Positions 14,495 to 21,179 of a stretch of DNA of 64,000 nt are shown one piece after another. The stretch lies in NCBI RefSeq assembly GCF_024266585.1, contig NZ_CP100647.1, positions 2,337,001-2,401,000 of the forward strand, read 5' to 3'. Position numbers and translations under genes: made by a program. The DNA is from Xanthomonas sacchari. Lineage in GTDB: Bacteria > Pseudomonadota > Gammaproteobacteria > Xanthomonadales > Xanthomonadaceae. Under the pieces are notes generated by a model. It was not told the DNA's origin. It saw only the letters and a list, made by a program, of their open reading frames with translations, and searched no databases. Each line of letters opens with the position of its first letter. Positions within the stretch are counted from its first letter, which is position 1.

Positions 14495-15388
14495 CTAGGC
14501 GACGCCGGCGCCACCCGTCGCGCCGAACACCTCGCCGGTCAGGTAGCTGCCTTCCTGGCTGGCGAGGAGCACATACAGCGGGGCGATTTCGACCGGCTGG
14601 CCGGGGCGCTTGAAGTGCGTCTTCGATCCGAACTGGGTGACCGCCTCCATCGGTTGGCCGCCAGAGGACTGCAGCGCGGTCCAGAAGGGACCCGGTGCCA
14701 CCACGTTCGCCCTGATGCCCTTTTCGCTCAACTGCGCCGCCAGCGCCTTGGTGTAGGCGACGATGCCGGCCTTGGTGGTCGCGTAGTCGAGCAGGATCGC
14801 CGACGGGTCGTACGCCTGGATGGACGCGGTGGTGATCACCGCGGCGCCCGCCGGCAGGTGCGGCACCGCGGCGCGGCAGATCCAGTGCATGGCATAGAGA
14901 TTGGTCTTCAGCGTCTTGTCGAAATCCTCGTCGCTGACCTCGCCGATCTCTTCCCGATACTGCTGTCGCCCCGCATTGATCACCAGGATGTCCAGGCCGC
15001 CCAGGCCGGCAACGGCTTTCTCGACCAACGCCGCGCACCAGTGCCGGTCGGTGATGTCGCCGGGAAGGCTGATCGCCTTGCGTCCTTCGGCCTCGATGAG
15101 GGCGACGACCTCCTGCGCGTCCGACGCCTCTTCGGCAAGGAAGGAGATGGCCACGTCGGCGCCCTCGCGGGCGAACGCGATCGCCGCGGCGCGACCGATG
15201 CCGCTGTCGCCGCCGGTCACCAGCGCCCGGCGGCCTGTCAGCTTGCCCGAGCCGCGGTAGCTGGTCTCGCCATGGTCGGGAACCGGGTCCATGTCCGACG
15301 CCTTCCCCGGAACCGGCTGCGGCTGCGGCGGGAAGGGCGGCTTGGGGTATTGTTCGCGCGGGTCCTGCATCTTCAGTCGATCGTTCAT
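14495..15388 (-). CDS. SDR-family oxidoreductase, YghA-like
   Basis: A 297-residue NAD(P)-dependent short-chain dehydrogenase of the YghA/general-stress subgroup, which carries a proline-rich N-terminal arm (about 40 residues, PKPPFPPQPQPVPGKASDMD) ahead of the Rossmann core. The cofactor motif is TGGDSGIG, then VINAG, and the active site is YATTK (LLDYATTKAGIVAY). The gene starts at 15388, after GAGGAAG, and its ATG overlaps the stop of the GH15 gene (ATGA), so the two are co-translated. The substrate is unknown. Relatives are often induced by osmotic or stationary-phase stress. Confidence 0.88.
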   Translation of the reverse strand: MNDRLKMQDPREQYPKPPFPPQPQPVPGKASDMDPVPDHGETSYRGSGKLTGRRALVTGGDSGIGRAAAIAFAREGADVAISFLAEEASDAQEVVALIEAEGRKAISLPGDITDRHWCAALVEKAVAGLGGLDILVINAGRQQYREEIGEVSDEDFDKTLKTNLYAMHWICRAAVPHLPAGAAVITTASIQAYDPSAILLDYATTKAGIVAYTKALAAQLSEKGIRANVVAPGPFWTALQSSGGQPMEAVTQFGSKTHFKRPGQPVEIAPLYVLLASQEGSYLTGEVFGATGGAGVA

Positions 15389-17238
15389 CGCGTCTTCCTC
15401 TTCTTGGCGTGTGGGCGGAGTTTCACCGGATTGGTTTGCGTGTTCTCGATGGTCGACATCGCCATGATCTGGGCGAGATGGCTCAGTCCTTGCGGGAAGT
15501 TGCCCAGGAAACCGCCGGAATGCGGATCGACCATTTCGCTCAACAGGCCGTCGCAGCGATCCAGCGCGGCGTTGAGCTGGATCAGCCGTTTCCTGGCTTT
15601 GGCTTTCTGTCCCAGGCGGGCATAGGCTTCGGCGATCCAGTAGGAGCACGCCACGAAACACCCTTCTTCCTGCGCCATGCCGGAGTAGCGGTAATGGAAC
15701 ACGCCGGCCCCCAACGCGCGGTCGATCGCGTCGAGGGTGGACAGCAGGCGATCCTTGCCGTCGAAGCGGAAGCGCGCGGCGAGCGCCACCGACGCATCCA
15801 GCCTGTCGCTTCCCGGATACATCACGAACGCCTGTTGCGCGTCCGACCAGCAGTGGGTTTCGATCCAGTCCTTGATCCTGTCGCGCTCGCGTTCCCAGCG
15901 ATCGCGACAGGTCGTCGGCAGTTGGCCCTGATCGGCCAACTCCACGGCCCTGGCCAGCGCCTGCCAGCAGCTGACCTTCGACATGGTGTAGTGCTGCAGC
16001 TCGGGCAATTCCCAGATCCCCGAGTCGGCCTTGCGCCAGCGATCGGCGCATTGGTCGGCCAGGCGCGACAGCAGTTCGGCGCTGGACGCGTCCAGGATGT
16101 TGCCGCGGCTCACGAAGCAATACGCGGTCTCGAAGATGTCGCCGTAGATGCCGTGCTGGTGCTGCTCGCCGGCGAGATTGCCTTTCACCACCGGCAGGGT
16201 GTTGCGATAGCCGGCGGCCTCCAGTTCGGTGACGTCGGTAACCACTCCGCCGTCCAGGGTGAACACGACTTTCGGGCCGTGCTGTCGCAGTTGCCGGATC
16301 AGCCAGGTGAACGCGGCCTTCGATTCCGCTTCCAGGCCCGCGGCGAGAAACGCCTGGATGGTGTAGCCGGCATCGCGGACCCAGGCATAGCGATAGTCGA
16401 AGTTCTTGTCTCCCCCGATCCGTTCCGGCAGCGACGTCGTCGCGGCCGCGGCGATGGCGCCGGAGGGCGAATACAGCAGCAGCTTGAGCGCGAGCGCGCT
16501 GCGCAGGAAAAAGTCCCGGCCCTCGCCGGAGAACGTCACGTTCTTCGACCATGCCCGCCATTCCTTGTCGGTCAGGTCGATGCGGCTGTCGATCTCCTCG
16601 ATGGTGGGGGCGACCAGCGGCTCGTCCTCGCCGACGACCAGGCCGACCGTCGCGCGTTGCCCCTGCGCGACGGTGATATGGCCGCGAACGCCGTGGTCCG
16701 ACCACGCGCAGGTCAGCCGGTCGTCATGGATCATGACGCCGAGCAGGCGGTCGACATGGAACACGGTGTGCGGGCCGATCGCTGAACAGTAGGGGCTGGC
16801 GTTCTTGGCCCGCAAGCTGAATTTCAGCTCCAGCCGGAAGCGCATTGTTCCGCGCTGGCACTCGATGCGCCGCGCAAGCTCGCACCAGGGCAGTCGTCCC
16901 GCATGCCCGCTGTTGAGCGACTCGGTCAGCGTCGCCCGTCCGGATGCGGTGGTGAACGTGGTGACCAGGACATTGCTGTCTCGCCGATAGTGCCGCTCGC
17001 TGCGGAACGGCTGGTCCGGGGCGAAAACGAAGTAACCGCCTTCCTCCGCATCCAGCAGCCGGTCGAACAGCGGCGCGCTGTCCATGTTGGGCGCGCACCA
17101 CCAATCGATGGAGCCGTCCGCCCCGGTCAACGCGACCGAGCGTCCTTCGCCAAGCGCGCCGTACTGCTCGATCGGCAATGCGCCGTCGGTGCGCTCAGCG
17201 GTATGGGTCGAACGACGCCGACGGGCGGTCGCAGGCAC
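15385..17238 (-). CDS. Glycoside hydrolase family 15 protein (glucoamylase/trehalase-like)
   Basis: About 617 residues. GH15 enzymes cut terminal alpha-glucosides, and bacterial members of this type are often trehalases or dextrin glucosidases. The N-terminal beta domain begins LPIEQYGALGEGRSVALTGA, then DGSIDWWCAPNMDS, the usual family opening. The (alpha/alpha)6 barrel has YAWVRDAGYTIQAF, the general acid in SGIWELPE (Glu about 410), a second Glu in CSYWIAEAYARLG (about 537) and the final GGFLGNFPQGLSHLAQI. The start is uncertain. GTG at 17238 follows GGAG and leaves a 221-base gap to the divergent operon, while longer frames run into that operon. No signal peptide is seen, so it should be cytoplasmic. 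It is co-translated with the SDR. Confidence 0.82.
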   Translation of the reverse strand: MPATARRRRSTHTAERTDGALPIEQYGALGEGRSVALTGADGSIDWWCAPNMDSAPLFDRLLDAEEGGYFVFAPDQPFRSERHYRRDSNVLVTTFTTASGRATLTESLNSGHAGRLPWCELARRIECQRGTMRFRLELKFSLRAKNASPYCSAIGPHTVFHVDRLLGVMIHDDRLTCAWSDHGVRGHITVAQGQRATVGLVVGEDEPLVAPTIEEIDSRIDLTDKEWRAWSKNVTFSGEGRDFFLRSALALKLLLYSPSGAIAAAATTSLPERIGGDKNFDYRYAWVRDAGYTIQAFLAAGLEAESKAAFTWLIRQLRQHGPKVVFTLDGGVVTDVTELEAAGYRNTLPVVKGNLAGEQHQHGIYGDIFETAYCFVSRGNILDASSAELLSRLADQCADRWRKADSGIWELPELQHYTMSKVSCWQALARAVELADQGQLPTTCRDRWERERDRIKDWIETHCWSDAQQAFVMYPGSDRLDASVALAARFRFDGKDRLLSTLDAIDRALGAGVFHYRYSGMAQEEGCFVACSYWIAEAYARLGQKAKARKRLIQLNAALDRCDGLLSEMVDPHSGGFLGNFPQGLSHLAQIMAMSTIENTQTNPVKLRPHAKKRKTR

Positions 17239-17459: not shown

Positions 17460-18818
17460 ATGGGAAAACCGGTCCTGTACTTCCTGCACGCCCTCGGCTC
17501 GAGCGGGCGCGAGTGGTCTGCGGTGATCGAGTTTCTGGACGCGCGCTTCGACTGCATCGCACTGGACATTCCGGGCTTCGGCAATGCGCCGGCGTTGCGC
17601 CGTCCCGATGTGGCGGCGCTGGTCGATTGGTTCACGGGCGAGGTCGCGCGGGACAGGCCCGACTGCTGGTATGTCGTGGGCCACAGCATGGGCGGGAAGA
17701 TCGCCACCCTGGCCGCGGCGCGCGCACGCGACGGCATGGCCGGACTCGCCGGCCTGGCCGGGGTCGTCCTGGTGGCCGCATCGCCGCCCGCGCCCGAGCC
17801 GATGGACGAATCCCGGCGGCAGACCATGCTGTCCTGGTTCGCCGCCGCCGGTCCCACGCGGCAGCAGGCCGAGCAGTTCATCGACGACAACTGCGCGACG
17901 GCGTTGCCGACGCCGCCGCGCGACGGCGCCGTCGACGATGTGCTGCGCAGCAGCGCGCGCGCATGGAACGCCTGGCTCACGCATGGCAGCCGCGAGGATT
18001 GCGCGGCGCAAGCCGGCTGCATCGAAGTGCCCGCCCTGATCGTCGCGGGCAGCGAGGATGGCGATCTCGACGAAGCGGCGCAGCGGCGCTGGAACCTGCC
18101 GCATTACCGCGACGCGCGCCTCGCGGTGGTGGCGCAGGCCGCGCACCTGATCCCCTACGAACAGCCGCAGGCGCTCGCGGCGTTGATCGCCGCGCATGTC
18201 GACGGCACCGCAGCACGCCGGCTGCCCGACGACTTCGTGGCGTTGCTCAACGCGGAGCGTGTCGCGCCGCAGATGCGCAAGACGCTGCTGCATCGCCACG
18301 CAGGGCCGTCCAGCACGGCGAAAGGGGTATTGAGCGCGCGCCAGTCGAGCACGCTGGCCGCGGTGGTCGAACGCGTGCTGGACGGTGCCGGCGACGCCAG
18401 GGACATCGCACGCCGCATCGACGTCGATCTCGCCAGCGAAGTGGGCGACGGATGGCGCTTTGCCGATCTGCCCCCCGATCGTCTCGCCTGGCCGCTGGGG
18501 CTCGATGCGCTGGACGCACTGTCGGGCGGGTTCGCCGCCTTGTCCGCACAGGAGCAGGATCGTTGGCTGCATGCCATTTTCGTGCGCGAGGCGGGCGATT
18601 GTGCCGATTGCGGATGGAGCGCGGCGCAACTTGCCGCCTGGTTCGAAGACCTGCGCGCCGAGACCGTGCGGATCTGGACAAGCCTTCCCGTCACCATGGC
18701 CGCATTGGGCTACGACGGCTTCGCCGTGGGCGGATTGGGCGCGGGCAGCCCCGGTTACCAGGAAACCGCCGCCGATCGGCGCGAGGCGTGGCAGCTGTTG
18801 CCCAAGGCGCATCCATGA
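17460..18818 (+). CDS. Alpha/beta-hydrolase fused to a gluconate 2-dehydrogenase subunit 3-like domain
   Basis: A 452-residue two-domain protein. Residues 1 to about 250 form an alpha/beta-hydrolase with the nucleophile elbow GHSMGG (Ser76), an acid region VAGSEDGDLD (about 197-203) and the catalytic His in AAHLIPYEQP (about 229). From about 290 the sequence changes to a helical domain opening VLSARQSSTLAAVVERVL and ending GYDGFAVGGLGAGSPGYQ. This resembles the small subunit of membrane gluconate/alcohol dehydrogenases, which normally partners a GMC flavoprotein. The next gene is exactly such a GMC protein and overlaps this one by four bases (ATGA). No Tat or Sec signal is present, although free-standing subunit 3 proteins usually carry one. 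The subunit-3 call comes from motif resemblance and context. Confidence 0.78.
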   Translation: MGKPVLYFLHALGSSGREWSAVIEFLDARFDCIALDIPGFGNAPALRRPDVAALVDWFTGEVARDRPDCWYVVGHSMGGKIATLAAARARDGMAGLAGLAGVVLVAASPPAPEPMDESRRQTMLSWFAAAGPTRQQAEQFIDDNCATALPTPPRDGAVDDVLRSSARAWNAWLTHGSREDCAAQAGCIEVPALIVAGSEDGDLDEAAQRRWNLPHYRDARLAVVAQAAHLIPYEQPQALAALIAAHVDGTAARRLPDDFVALLNAERVAPQMRKTLLHRHAGPSSTAKGVLSARQSSTLAAVVERVLDGAGDARDIARRIDVDLASEVGDGWRFADLPPDRLAWPLGLDALDALSGGFAALSAQEQDRWLHAIFVREAGDCADCGWSAAQLAAWFEDLRAETVRIWTSLPVTMAALGYDGFAVGGLGAGSPGYQETAADRREAWQLLPKAHP

Positions 18819-20338
18819 CCGTCGCCTCGGCTGCTGTAGCGGATGCGGTCGTGGTCGGCAGTGGCGCCGGCGGCGGTCCGCTGGCCGCGCGGTTGGCGCA
18901 GGCCGGCGTCTCGGTGGTGGTGCTGGAAGCCGGCGCGGCGTTCGGCCCAGACGCGCACCGCGCGGACGAGCTGGCGACGGACATCTACTGGATGGACGAG
19001 CGCCTCAGCGGCGGGCGCACGCCGACGGCATTCGGCCCGAACAATTCCGGTGCGGGGCTCGGCGGTTCGACGCTGCATTGGGGCGCCTTCTGCCCGCGCC
19101 CGGACCCGCGCGATCTGCAACTGCGGACGCAGACCGGCCAGGGCGAAGACTGGCCGATCCCGCATCAGGAGCTGCTGTCCTATCTGCAGCGTGTCGAACG
19201 CTTCATCGGCGTGTCCGGGCCGGCGGTCTATCCATGGGATGGCGCGCGCTGCTATGCCTTCCCGCCCGCCCAGCGCAACGCGCCTGCCGAGGCGATGGCG
19301 CGCGGCTGCCGTGCCCTCGGCATCACCGCCGCCGATGCACCGGCGGCATTGGTCACCCGCACGCACGAACAGCCGCATTGGGGCATGCGGGTCGCCTGCA
19401 ACAATTGCGGTGCGTGTCATCAGGGCTGCAGCAACGGCGCCAAGGTCAGTGTGGATACGACTTGGTTGCCGTTGGCACGGGCGCATGGCGCCGACCTGCG
19501 CACCGATTGCCGGGTGGTCGGGATCGAGCGCGACGGCCGTGGCGCGGTCAGCGGCGTCGTCTACCGGCAGGGCGAGCGCGAACTGCGCCAGCGTTGCTCG
19601 GCCTTGTTCCTGTGCGCTGGCGGTGTGGAAACCCCGCGCTTGCTGCTGAACCTGGGACTGGCCAACTCCAGCGGCCAGGTCGGGCGCAATTTCATGGCGC
19701 ATGTCGCCACCCAGGTCTGGGGCGCGTTCGACATGGACATGCGCATGAACCGCGGCTACCCCTCGTCGCTGATGAGCGAGGACATGCTGCGCCCCGCGCA
19801 TGCCGGGTTTGCCGGGGGCTATCTGATCCAGAGCCTGGGCGTGCAGCCGGTGACGCTCGCCAACACCCTGGCGCGCGGCGCCGGACGCTGGGGCGCGGCG
19901 CTGGTGCGGACCATGATGCGTTACAACCGCCTGGCCGGCATCGGCGTCAATGGCGAATGCCTGCCGCAGGACGCCAATCGCCTGACGCTCGCCGACGAGC
20001 ACGACGCCTTCGGCCTGCGCAAGGCGCGCATCGACTTCAGCTACGGCCCCAACGAACAGGCGCTCGATGCCCACGCCAGGCGCACGCTGCAGGCGATCTG
20101 GGAGGCGGCCGGCGCCCAGGACATCTTCGCCGCCGCGCGCTCGGCGCACACGCTCGGCACCTGCCGGATGGGCCGCGATCCCGCGCGGGCCGTGGTCGAT
20201 CCGGACGGCCGTTCGTTCGACATCGGCAACCTCTACGTCTGCGACAACTCCGTGTTTCCCAGTGCGTTGGCGGCCAATCCCGGCTTGACGCAGATGGCGC
20301 TCGGCCTGCGCACCGCGGAGCGGTTTCTCGCGCAATAG
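18815..20338 (+). CDS. GMC-family FAD oxidoreductase with four-cysteine motif
   Basis: A 507-residue glucose-methanol-choline oxidoreductase, which oxidises an alcohol or sugar hydroxyl with FAD. The FAD motif GSGAGGGPLAARLAQAG lies at residues 15-31 with VVVLEAG after it. GLGGSTLHWGAF is the GMC signature region. The C-terminal part has AHTLGTCRMG and the active-site stretch NSVFPSALAANPGLT. Residues 195-205 read CNNCGACHQGC, a Cys-x2-Cys-x2-Cys-x3-Cys array that could bind an iron-sulfur cluster, as in FAD-dependent dehydrogenases that pass electrons to a cytochrome. No signal peptide and no cytochrome c gene are nearby. It probably works with the subunit-3-like domain encoded upstream. Confidence 0.9.
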   Translation: MTVASAAVADAVVVGSGAGGGPLAARLAQAGVSVVVLEAGAAFGPDAHRADELATDIYWMDERLSGGRTPTAFGPNNSGAGLGGSTLHWGAFCPRPDPRDLQLRTQTGQGEDWPIPHQELLSYLQRVERFIGVSGPAVYPWDGARCYAFPPAQRNAPAEAMARGCRALGITAADAPAALVTRTHEQPHWGMRVACNNCGACHQGCSNGAKVSVDTTWLPLARAHGADLRTDCRVVGIERDGRGAVSGVVYRQGERELRQRCSALFLCAGGVETPRLLLNLGLANSSGQVGRNFMAHVATQVWGAFDMDMRMNRGYPSSLMSEDMLRPAHAGFAGGYLIQSLGVQPVTLANTLARGAGRWGAALVRTMMRYNRLAGIGVNGECLPQDANRLTLADEHDAFGLRKARIDFSYGPNEQALDAHARRTLQAIWEAAGAQDIFAAARSAHTLGTCRMGRDPARAVVDPDGRSFDIGNLYVCDNSVFPSALAANPGLTQMALGLRTAERFLAQ

Positions 20339-20375
20339 GCGGTTGCTTCCCCTTCACTATAACGAGGACATCGAC

Positions 20376-21179
20376 ATGGACCTAGGCATCAACCATCGCA
20401 TTGCCCTGATCAGCGGCGCCGACTCGGGCATGGGCAAGGAAACCGCACGGCAACTGCTGCAGGCCGGCGTCCGCGTGGCCATCACCGACCGCGTCGATGG
20501 CACGCTCGAGGAGGCGCTGTCCGAACTGTCGGGCCTGGGCGAGGTCATCGCCGTGGCGGGCGATGTGAGGCGTGCGAACGATGTCGCGCAGATCTGGGCG
20601 CAGGTCCGGGCGCAACTGGGCGATCCGGATATCTACGTCAACGCGGCCGGCGTCACCGGCGCGACCGGCGACTTTCTGGACGTGAGCGATGCCGGGTGGC
20701 TCGAGACGCTGGACATCAACCTGATGGGCGCGGTGCGGATGTGCCGCGAAGCGATTCCCGCGATGCGCCGCAACCGATGGGGACGCATCGTGCTGTTCGC
20801 GTCCGAGGACGCCGTGCAGCCCTACGTGGACGAGCTGGCCTATTGCGCGTCGAAGGCGGGGATCCTGAGCCTCGCCAAGGGCCTGGCCAAGGCCTACGGC
20901 GGCGACAACGTGCTGGTCAATACGGTGTCGCCCGCGTTCATCCATACCCCGATGACCGACGCGATGATGCACAAGCGTGCGAAGGAGAAGGGAACGACCT
21001 TCGATGAAGCGGTGTCGTCGTTCCTGGACGAGGAGCGCCCCGGCATGGTCCTCAAGCGGCGTGGCCGGCCGGAAGAGGTGGCGGCGGCGGTCGCGTTTCT
21101 CTGCTCCGAGCGCGCCAGTTTCATCAATGGCGCCGGCATCCGGGTCGATTCCGGGTCGGTGCAGACCATCGCTGGTTGA
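20376..21179 (+). CDS. Short-chain dehydrogenase/reductase, third gene of the GMC operon
   Basis: A 267-residue classical SDR with SGADSGMG at the cofactor site, YVNAAGVTG, and the active site YCASK (ELAYCASKAGIL). The late RRGRPEEVAAAVAFLCSERA and GAGIRVDSGSVQTI are typical of the family. ATG at 20376 is chosen because GAGGA sits seven bases before it, and 33 in-frame bases upstream are ignored. It follows the GMC gene by 37 bases on the same strand and is probably in the same transcript. A joint pathway for a sugar or polyol is likely, but the substrate is unknown. Confidence 0.86.
   Translation: MDLGINHRIALISGADSGMGKETARQLLQAGVRVAITDRVDGTLEEALSELSGLGEVIAVAGDVRRANDVAQIWAQVRAQLGDPDIYVNAAGVTGATGDFLDVSDAGWLETLDINLMGAVRMCREAIPAMRRNRWGRIVLFASEDAVQPYVDELAYCASKAGILSLAKGLAKAYGGDNVLVNTVSPAFIHTPMTDAMMHKRAKEKGTTFDEAVSSFLDEERPGMVLKRRGRPEEVAAAVAFLCSERASFINGAGIRVDSGSVQTIAG

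Follow-up and report, generated by a model that had tools for sequence, protein, structure and literature searches.

The Xanthomonas sacchari locus described here encodes an alpha/beta-hydrolase fused to a gluconate-dehydrogenase subunit-3 domain, in a gene that overlaps that of a GMC flavoprotein. We consider it very likely that the two proteins form one complex, and put at roughly 0.55 the probability that this complex forms and that its hydrolase acts on the same small molecule as the flavoprotein, in either order. The case for a complex draws on the GMC gene always lying downstream, the 4-nt gene overlap, the co-occurrence of the genes where they are split, the GMC tree, the conserved iron-sulphur, FAD and His/Asn sites, and a conserved tail on the fusion. 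The data suggest a pair of enzymes acting within the cell to oxidise and cleave a small molecule, which may derive from a sugar. A dehydrogenase that carries its own hydrolase and has no cytochrome gene beside it would be of interest for sugar biosensors and biocatalysts. We found no account of the fusion in the open-access papers searched; most subscription journals and preprints lay outside that search.

The fused protein and its locus

The window, meaning the whole stretch of DNA analysed, spans 64,000 nt of the X. sacchari contig NZ_CP100647.1 (assembly GCF_024266585.1; positions 2,337,001-2,401,000, forward strand). Its relevant features, numbered from the first letter of the window, are as follows.

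14495..15388, minus strand: SDR2, PRK06128-type, 297 aa, recurrent neighbour (NCBIfam NF004782)
15385..17220, minus strand: GH15 glycoside hydrolase, trehalase-like, divergent neighbour (Pfam Glyco_hydro_15, TREH_N; start codon not fixed)
17460..18818, plus strand: fused protein, 452 aa; alpha/beta-hydrolase at about 1-251, subunit-3 domain at about 256-446 (Pfam, AlphaFold model, alignment A2)
17685..17687, plus strand: codon of catalytic Ser76 (GHSMGGK), invariant in alignments A1 and A2
18057..18059, plus strand: codon of Asp200, probably catalytic, nearly invariant in A2
18144..18146, plus strand: codon of catalytic His229, invariant in A2
18225..18815, plus strand: Gluconate_2-dh3 (PF13618) domain, internal, without a Tat signal (Pfam; domain model)
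18815..18818, plus strand: ATGA stop/start overlap from the fusion to the GMC gene
18815..20338, plus strand: GMC flavoprotein, 507 aa (Pfam; best PDB matches BcGDH alpha and the FDH large subunit; alignment)
19397..19429, plus strand: putative iron-sulphur Cys array C195, C198, C201, C205 (alignment; BcGDH 3Fe-4S ligand spacing)
20376..21179, plus strand: SDR1, 267 aa, optional member (Pfam; adjoins fusions, >60% identity)

A sequence-only reading of this DNA had proposed the 452-residue fusion, and Pfam bears it out: Abhydrolase_1 covers residues 4-234 (E 9.5e-21) and PF13618 residues 294-418 (E 1.5e-6; 29.1 bits against a cut-off of 23.4). The fusion is the sole PF13618 match of the X. sacchari genome at E 0.001. 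Most relatives tested match the family more strongly (Methylobacterium, 2.2e-16; Granulicella, 3.4e-11; locus L131, 1.8e-11; a split Hymenobacter protein, 7.8e-19), while a Curtobacterium row, at 22.4 bits, falls slightly below the cut-off. Against the PDB, the subunit-3 profile (A3) returned no significant match (best E 0.025, taken as chance), a result that we did not count against family membership, since L232, a PF13618 protein of the canonical Tat type, likewise had no sequence match there. For the distant clade, a small subunit (L154) produced PDB matches at chance level only. Foldseek and VIA-align, used to look for a fold like that of BcGDH gamma, listed no significant match.

AlphaFold modelled the fusion alone with a pLDDT of 89.8 and a pTM of 0.87, and the subunit-3 domain alone as almost all-helical (pLDDT 85.9). 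Residues 422-452 of the fusion fell below a pLDDT of 50. Despite this low model confidence, the tail at 422-446 is conserved to the same degree as the rest of the domain (0.49 vs 0.435), which would be the behaviour expected of a partner-bound lid.

Ser76 and a His near 229, earlier singled out as catalytic, are both invariant in 18 aligned fusions (A2), and Asp200, the third member of the triad, is nearly so, with Glu in Granulicella. The hydrolase resembles aryl esterases, a feruloyl esterase and also lactonases. It shares 12-22% identity with hydrolases of the PcaD enol-lactonase and Pseudomonas fluorescens esterase type (50 rows listed), from which it differs in being fused to PF13618 and in scoring far under the NCBIfam equivalog cut-offs for PcaD (58.1 vs 255.85 bits), MenH (62.7 vs 208.55) and BioH (44.9 vs 206.95).

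Subunit 3 is usually regarded as a Tat hitchhiker. Among PF13618 loci of other genomes, 25 of 30 passed a simple Tat filter, in agreement with the earlier statement that the subunit is normally Tat-exported; one of the 25, L240, looks doubtful on inspection by eye, and L241 looks Tat-like by eye only. An excerpt of PMC10924467 describes the Tat signal as quite widely conserved across the family. The X. sacchari fusion begins MGKPVLYFLHALG and the GMC protein MTVASAAVADAVVVGSGAGGG; neither N-terminus is signal-like by eye, as had been noted from the sequence, and with the PF13618 domain internal, the Tat signal of a small subunit is absent. No Tat-like start occurred among the fused or split subunit-3 starts read. 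Since the domain has been kept without export, it should have another role, such as capping the iron-sulphur face, stabilising the GMC protein or docking a second enzyme.

The absence of a cytochrome subunit nearby also held up within the window. The genome has six PF13442 and eight PF00034 matches, none of them inside the 64 kb and the nearest about 176 kb from the GMC gene, and no frame in the window carries three CxxCH motifs. This result pertains to the window and is compatible with a distant cytochrome partner.

Fused and split forms across genomes

The fusion recurs in Pseudomonadota, Actinomycetota and Acidobacteriota, with 33 fused loci read; the number of fusions from the GTDB scan is a lower bound. 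The translational coupling proposed for X. sacchari is general, as fusion and GMC genes overlap by 4 nt (ATGA or GTGA) in 33/33 of these loci. The GMC gene lay directly downstream in all 18 full-length fusion loci among the scan matches listed, and when the search started from the GMC instead, the four loci whose GMC proteins were most similar (62-65%) each had the fusion just upstream. With genes that overlap, the two proteins would most likely make up one complex.

In Hymenobacteraceae, the hydrolase, subunit 3 and GMC protein are encoded by separate genes. Across whole genomes, the hydrolase was present in 36/37 GMC-positive and 2/63 GMC-negative members of the family. Split loci were read in 22 of the 37 GMC-positive genomes: subunit 3 was upstream of the GMC gene in 22/22, and the hydrolase lay within the fetched stretch in 12/22. 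Separate genes here and a fusion elsewhere constitute a Rosetta-stone case, strengthening the functional link drawn earlier between fusion and GMC. The same co-occurrence, together with the conserved triad in fusions of several phyla, renders it improbable that the hydrolase is a passenger or assembly scaffold with no role in the same pathway, even if a fusion would set stoichiometry regardless of hydrolase activity.

Neighbouring genes and the candidate substrate

The sequence-only reading had included SDR1 in a three-step route. That route is unsupported as written, since SDR1 adjoins only 17/33 fused loci and is thus optional. SDR2 (NF004782, 513.7 bits vs a cut-off of 481) occurs at 11/33 fused and 20/22 split loci. 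GH15 was the only non-SDR family recognised as common to several fused lineages (45 neighbour rows listed). We took most other listed rows to be known genes read antisense or out of frame; one was a low-complexity Curtobacterium frame. GH15 recurs at 11/33 fused loci vs 1/62 control loci and, counted by lineage, beside 6/18 fused lineages and 3/4 stand-alone loci vs 1/61 controls; it was not found in the 22 split loci. The GH15 protein had no PDB match at 0.001.

The tethered hydrolase would most likely act on the same small molecule as the GMC protein. Our preferred step, held tentatively, is that it opens the lactone arising from oxidation of a cyclic sugar. Sugar and lactone chemistry is favoured because the nearest solved GMC relatives are glucose and fructose dehydrogenases, because GH15 genes are neighbours, because GH15, an SDR1-like gene and a stand-alone hydrolase stand in a row in Pedobacter (L070), and because in Sphingomonas Leaf10 the fusion follows a gene of the gluconolactonase family. 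The Pedobacter genome had no GMC match at 1e-50. Among the neighbours scanned, gluconolactonase, sugar transporter, phosphoglucomutase and bd oxidase genes each appeared at one locus.

The opposite order, put forward in the sequence-only reading, strikes us as rather unlikely: ester cleavage by the hydrolase would come first, and the GMC protein (and sometimes the SDR) would then oxidise the alcohol released. It would suit the resemblance of the hydrolase to aryl esterases and a feruloyl esterase, seen alongside that to lactonases, and in Sphingomonas PP-F2F (L051) the GMC gene is followed by two more genes for alpha/beta-hydrolases, their starts Tat-like by eye. However, among the matches listed the module has no recurrent esterase neighbour, and the non-SDR family that does recur there is a glycosidase; three chosen hydrolase-only relatives adjoin pullulanase, GH1 and glycogen-debranching genes. 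A hydrolase working on the GMC product, e.g. a lactone, suits the neighbourhood slightly better.

It is also rather improbable that the substrate is a non-sugar (e.g. a terpenoid, aromatic or long-chain alcohol) and GH15 merely a neighbour in a stress-type island. GH15 was not found at 22/33 fused loci or at the split loci, SDR2 and DUF2383 genes, which we presume to be stress-type, are neighbours, and 4/18 record titles name strains from leaves (Leaf8, Leaf10, Leaf22, Leaf34). Against this stand the sugar substrates of the closest solved GMC relatives and the recurrence of GH15 in several gene orders, including with the stand-alone clade.

The flavoprotein, its cysteine array and known relatives

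Pfam assigns GMC_oxred_C (1e-23) and GMC_oxred_N (2.6e-18) to the flavoprotein, whose best PDB match is BcGDH alpha (6e-32), with the FDH large subunit also among the best. The four-cysteine array described from the sequence is present as C195-x2-C198-x2-C201-x3-C205. We take CxxCxxCxxxC to be a ferredoxin-type [4Fe-4S] pattern. It occurs in 32/33 fused tree rows (all but Granulicella) and in 0/4 stand-alone, 0/22 distant and 0/22 split rows. The four-Cys fused rows are one clade of the GMC tree (100/99), in which the distant (Tat), stand-alone and split rows are likewise each set apart by a branch. C195, C201 and C205 have the spacing of BcGDH Cys212, Cys218 and Cys222, its 3Fe-4S ligands (PMC6719666, excerpt); the phmmer alignment has one gap within the Cys stretch. 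Judged by spacing, the fourth Cys turns a 3Fe-4S-type site into a ferredoxin-like motif, and the cluster of this clade is probably [4Fe-4S]. A heme c site, for which the CxxCH spelled by C198-G-A-C201-H in the four-Cys rows (33 listed) would speak, is very improbable, since heme c is attached outside the cytoplasm whereas no export signal was seen, the other ligands are spaced as in the BcGDH 3Fe-4S site, and neighbouring clades lacking C198 retain the other three Cys.

The locus shares with the three-subunit FAD-dependent GMC dehydrogenases (Burkholderia cepacia BcGDH, fructose dehydrogenase, gluconate 2-dehydrogenase) a GMC catalytic subunit, a small partner subunit or domain, and three cysteines of iron-sulphur spacing. 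By motif, His88 corresponds to the FAD-linked His105 of BcGDH, and His445/Asn488 form the catalytic pair, both sites being conserved (alignment; PMC6719666, excerpt). The locus departs from these enzymes in that its subunit-3 domain is joined to a hydrolase and carries no Tat signal, that the window contains no gene for a cytochrome c, and that the fourth Cys is additional; BcGDH Cys213, of the inter-subunit disulphide, corresponds to Asn196 in an ungapped reading.

The module would be a cytoplasmic version of these dehydrogenases, with a subunit-3 domain that carries a Tat signal in exported relatives, appears to have lost export and now makes up the C-terminal half of a serine hydrolase. Going by the small subunit of BcGDH, it should cover the iron-sulphur face of the GMC protein, which would oxidise a hydroxyl via FAD and pass electrons to a surface iron-sulphur cluster and on to an acceptor that is not a dedicated cytochrome c encoded nearby. 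A more speculative and frankly doubtful extension is a self-contained 'oxidise-and-open' enzyme, in which a periplasmic respiratory pair was turned inward, its [3Fe-4S] cluster became a ferredoxin-like [4Fe-4S] cluster for a soluble acceptor, and a lactonase was built into the former export subunit, the whole spreading over at least three phyla. Because split, fused three-Cys and fused four-Cys states are all extant, the three- to four-Cys step is directly testable.

Stand-alone cytoplasmic subunit-3/GMC pairs beside TPP-enzyme genes (L157-L160) likewise have a PF13618-like protein upstream of the GMC, no Tat signal in the three starts read (of four), and GH15 nearby in 3/4. They differ in having no hydrolase match in the stretches read, three Cys only, and a GMC about 38-42% identical. 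An EcfG (general stress) promoter was rejected for the fused loci: across 21 loci scanned, no GGAAC-N15-18-CGTT site fell within 1 kb upstream of a fusion gene. In L157, one such site precedes the TPP-enzyme operon by about 70 bp.

Fusion gene and its coupling to the GMC flavoprotein

The three genes proposed in the sequence-only reading are real, and each lies where it had been placed:

17460–18818: fusion of 452 aa, alpha/beta-hydrolase followed by Gluconate_2-dh3 (Pfam)
18815–20338: GMC protein of 507 aa, overlapping the fusion by ATGA
20376–21179: SDR (SDR1)

A subunit-3-like domain had been suspected in the 452-residue protein, and Pfam assigns Gluconate_2-dh3 (PF13618) to residues 294–418 with a modest yet passing score (29.1 bits vs the cut-off of 23.4), the sole copy found in the organism's own genome. 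An AlphaFold model of the fusion (18 sequences; pLDDT 89.8, pTM 0.87) places the hydrolase before a helical domain, with pLDDT <50 at residues 422–452. Modeled on its own, the subunit-3 domain is nearly all-helical (pLDDT 85.9). An antisense open frame of 526 codons through the GMC gene (18755–20335, minus strand) was taken to reflect high G+C.

Across the 33 fused loci examined (the window and loci L032–L042, L048–L064, and L161–L164 of other genomes), the fusion and GMC genes always share a 4-nt stop/start overlap (ATGA or GTGA), bearing out the proposed coupling. A three-step route including the SDR had been proposed but is not supported as it stands: SDR1 (>60% identity) occurs in 17/33 loci and SDR2, a PRK06128-type SDR (>44% identity), in 11/33, absences referring to the stretch available, as flanks are unequal. 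The module core is therefore the fusion plus GMC, with the SDR optional.

Export signals and the iron–sulfur site

PF13618 is present in 35 of 249 genomes of the phylum. A simple Tat filter is passed by 25 of the 30 loci listed, among them L240, which looks doubtful on inspection; L241 is judged Tat-bearing by eye, the start of L253 carries a KR variant, and that of L255 is ambiguous. The other two loci are hydrolase fusions lacking a signal. In these loci subunit 3 is thus normally Tat-exported, as had been claimed, in agreement with PMC10924467, which describes the twin-arginine signal as quite widely conserved in the family. An RR signal is found on 8/8 upstream small subunits examined in a distant clade, whose "Tat" label is based on these 8 of its 22. 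RR signals are absent from 3/3 starts examined in a four-member stand-alone clade (L157–L160, beside TPP-enzyme genes) and, by eye, from 22/22 subunit-3 starts of a split class in Hymenobacteraceae. The window holds no cytochrome c domain, consistent with the earlier remark that a cytochrome subunit is missing nearby. Given this absence and the lack of a signal in the fused loci, the fused module is most likely cytoplasmic. The fusion plus GMC is a new form of GMC/subunit-3 dehydrogenase outside the exported three-subunit class, since searches for a Tat signal and for cytochrome c nearby found neither. Searches of an open-access library found no published account of the fusion.

For the exported three-subunit glucose dehydrogenase of Burkholderia cepacia (BcGDH), PMC6719666 describes a 3Fe–4S cluster held by Cys212, Cys218, and Cys222, a disulfide from Cys213 to the small subunit, and a small-subunit C-terminal tail that is lid-like over the interface. 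The window GMC has Cys at all three cluster positions in an ungapped alignment (phmmer set a gap here), but Asn in place of Cys213 and an extra Cys, C198. Four-Cys GMCs (33 rows in the alignment, 32 in the tree after removal of one duplicate) all come from fused loci. The GMC of the Granulicella fusion has three Cys, as do those of the stand-alone (4), more distant (22), and split (22) rows. Each class is set apart by a branch of the tree; the four-Cys fused rows group at 100/99 and are joined by the three-Cys Granulicella fusion at 97/87, which argues that the fourth ligand, completing CxxCxxCxxxC, probably arose once, later than the fusion. This pattern is that of ferredoxins; the cluster in this clade is probably, by inference, [4Fe–4S]. 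In the same tree, the GMC of L048 (record Arthrobacter sp. TPD3018) clusters with Sphingomonas rows, and the record may be misnamed, contaminated, or a recent transfer.

Distribution and the split form

Full-length fusions occur in 12 of 297 genomes of the same family, five in the organism's own genus (its own genome counted) and seven in genus g17. Genome G159 retains only hydrolase fragments (L044:8474–8779); the 16 kb examined gave no match to GMC or subunit 3, and this genome has apparently lost the module. Past 1e-20, a class-level search of 369 genomes returned the organism's own fusion alone. A scan of GTDB contigs gave at least 18 full-length fusions among the best 80 of 217 relatives; fusion-bearing records among the loci listed include Xanthomonas, Pseudoxanthomonas, Sphingomonas, Pseudoroseomonas, Methylobacterium, Frigoribacterium, Curtobacterium, Granulicella, and one named Arthrobacter (L047 and G118 are one and the same genome). 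GMC matches at 1e-30 occur in 107/398 genomes of the phylum; among 29 further loci listed, the fusion is also present at the four whose GMCs are 62–65% identical.

In Hymenobacter roseosalivarius (L071), SDR2, subunit 3 (no signal; PF13618 E 7.8e-19), GMC (53% identical), and hydrolase are separate genes, the hydrolase 4 kb from the others. Among 100 genomes of its family, GMC (E up to 1e-100) is found in 37, the hydrolase (E up to 1e-40) in 38, and both in 36 (Fisher 1.3e-23, which ignores kinship; presence may partly track genus). The two genes lie <15 kb apart in 20 of these 36, farther apart on one contig in eight, and on separate contigs in eight. Subunit 3 is 5′ of GMC in all 22 split loci examined, SDR2 is present in 20, and the hydrolase lies within the stretch examined in 12. 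Parts fused in some lineages and separate yet co-occurring in this family are Rosetta-stone evidence for hydrolase and dehydrogenase working together. Old-yellow-enzyme type genes lie near a fused module (L049:491–1600; Pfam Oxidored_FMN) and near the split one (L071:3990–5207; by eye).

Neighboring genes and possible substrates

Among GMC proteins of solved structure, glucose and fructose dehydrogenases are the closest. A GH15 gene with a trehalase-like N-terminal domain adjoins 11/33 fused loci, in several gene orders, vs 1/62 control loci with a related hydrolase only, a set that takes in L071 (Fisher 2.3e-5, ignoring kinship). Collapsed by lineage, the counts are 6/18 fused, plus 3/4 stand-alone loci, vs 1/61 controls; the organism's own genome has three GH15 genes in total. 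In the sole control match, Pedobacter L070, GH15, an SDR1-like gene, and a stand-alone hydrolase are consecutive, with SDR2 adjoining; that genome gave no GMC match at 1e-50. In Sphingomonas sp. Leaf10, an SMP-30/gluconolactonase-family gene (L052:1782–2786) lies immediately 5′ of the fusion. Together, these GMC relatives and neighbors suggest that a sugar is oxidized and a lactone opened. Two points count against this: no GH15 gene was found at any of the 22 split loci or at 22/33 fused loci, and the hydrolase fold suits esterases as well as lactonases. We put opening of a lactone at roughly 35%; cleavage of an ester prior to oxidation and a substrate other than sugar are each somewhat less probable, and the three readings overlap.

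The stand-alone clade has further neighbors. At L158:9448–11917, genes for cytochrome bd oxidase subunits I and II sit directly 3′ of GMC, which may give its electrons a route via quinone. At three loci, a protein of 273–329 aa with zero Pfam matches separates the TPP-enzyme gene from the subunit-3/GMC pair:

L157:8220–9041: 273–329 aa protein
L159:6939–7922: 273–329 aa protein
L160:4301–5290: 273–329 aa protein

An EcfG-like promoter match is located ~70 bp 5′ of the clade's TPP-enzyme operon (L157:10905, minus strand).
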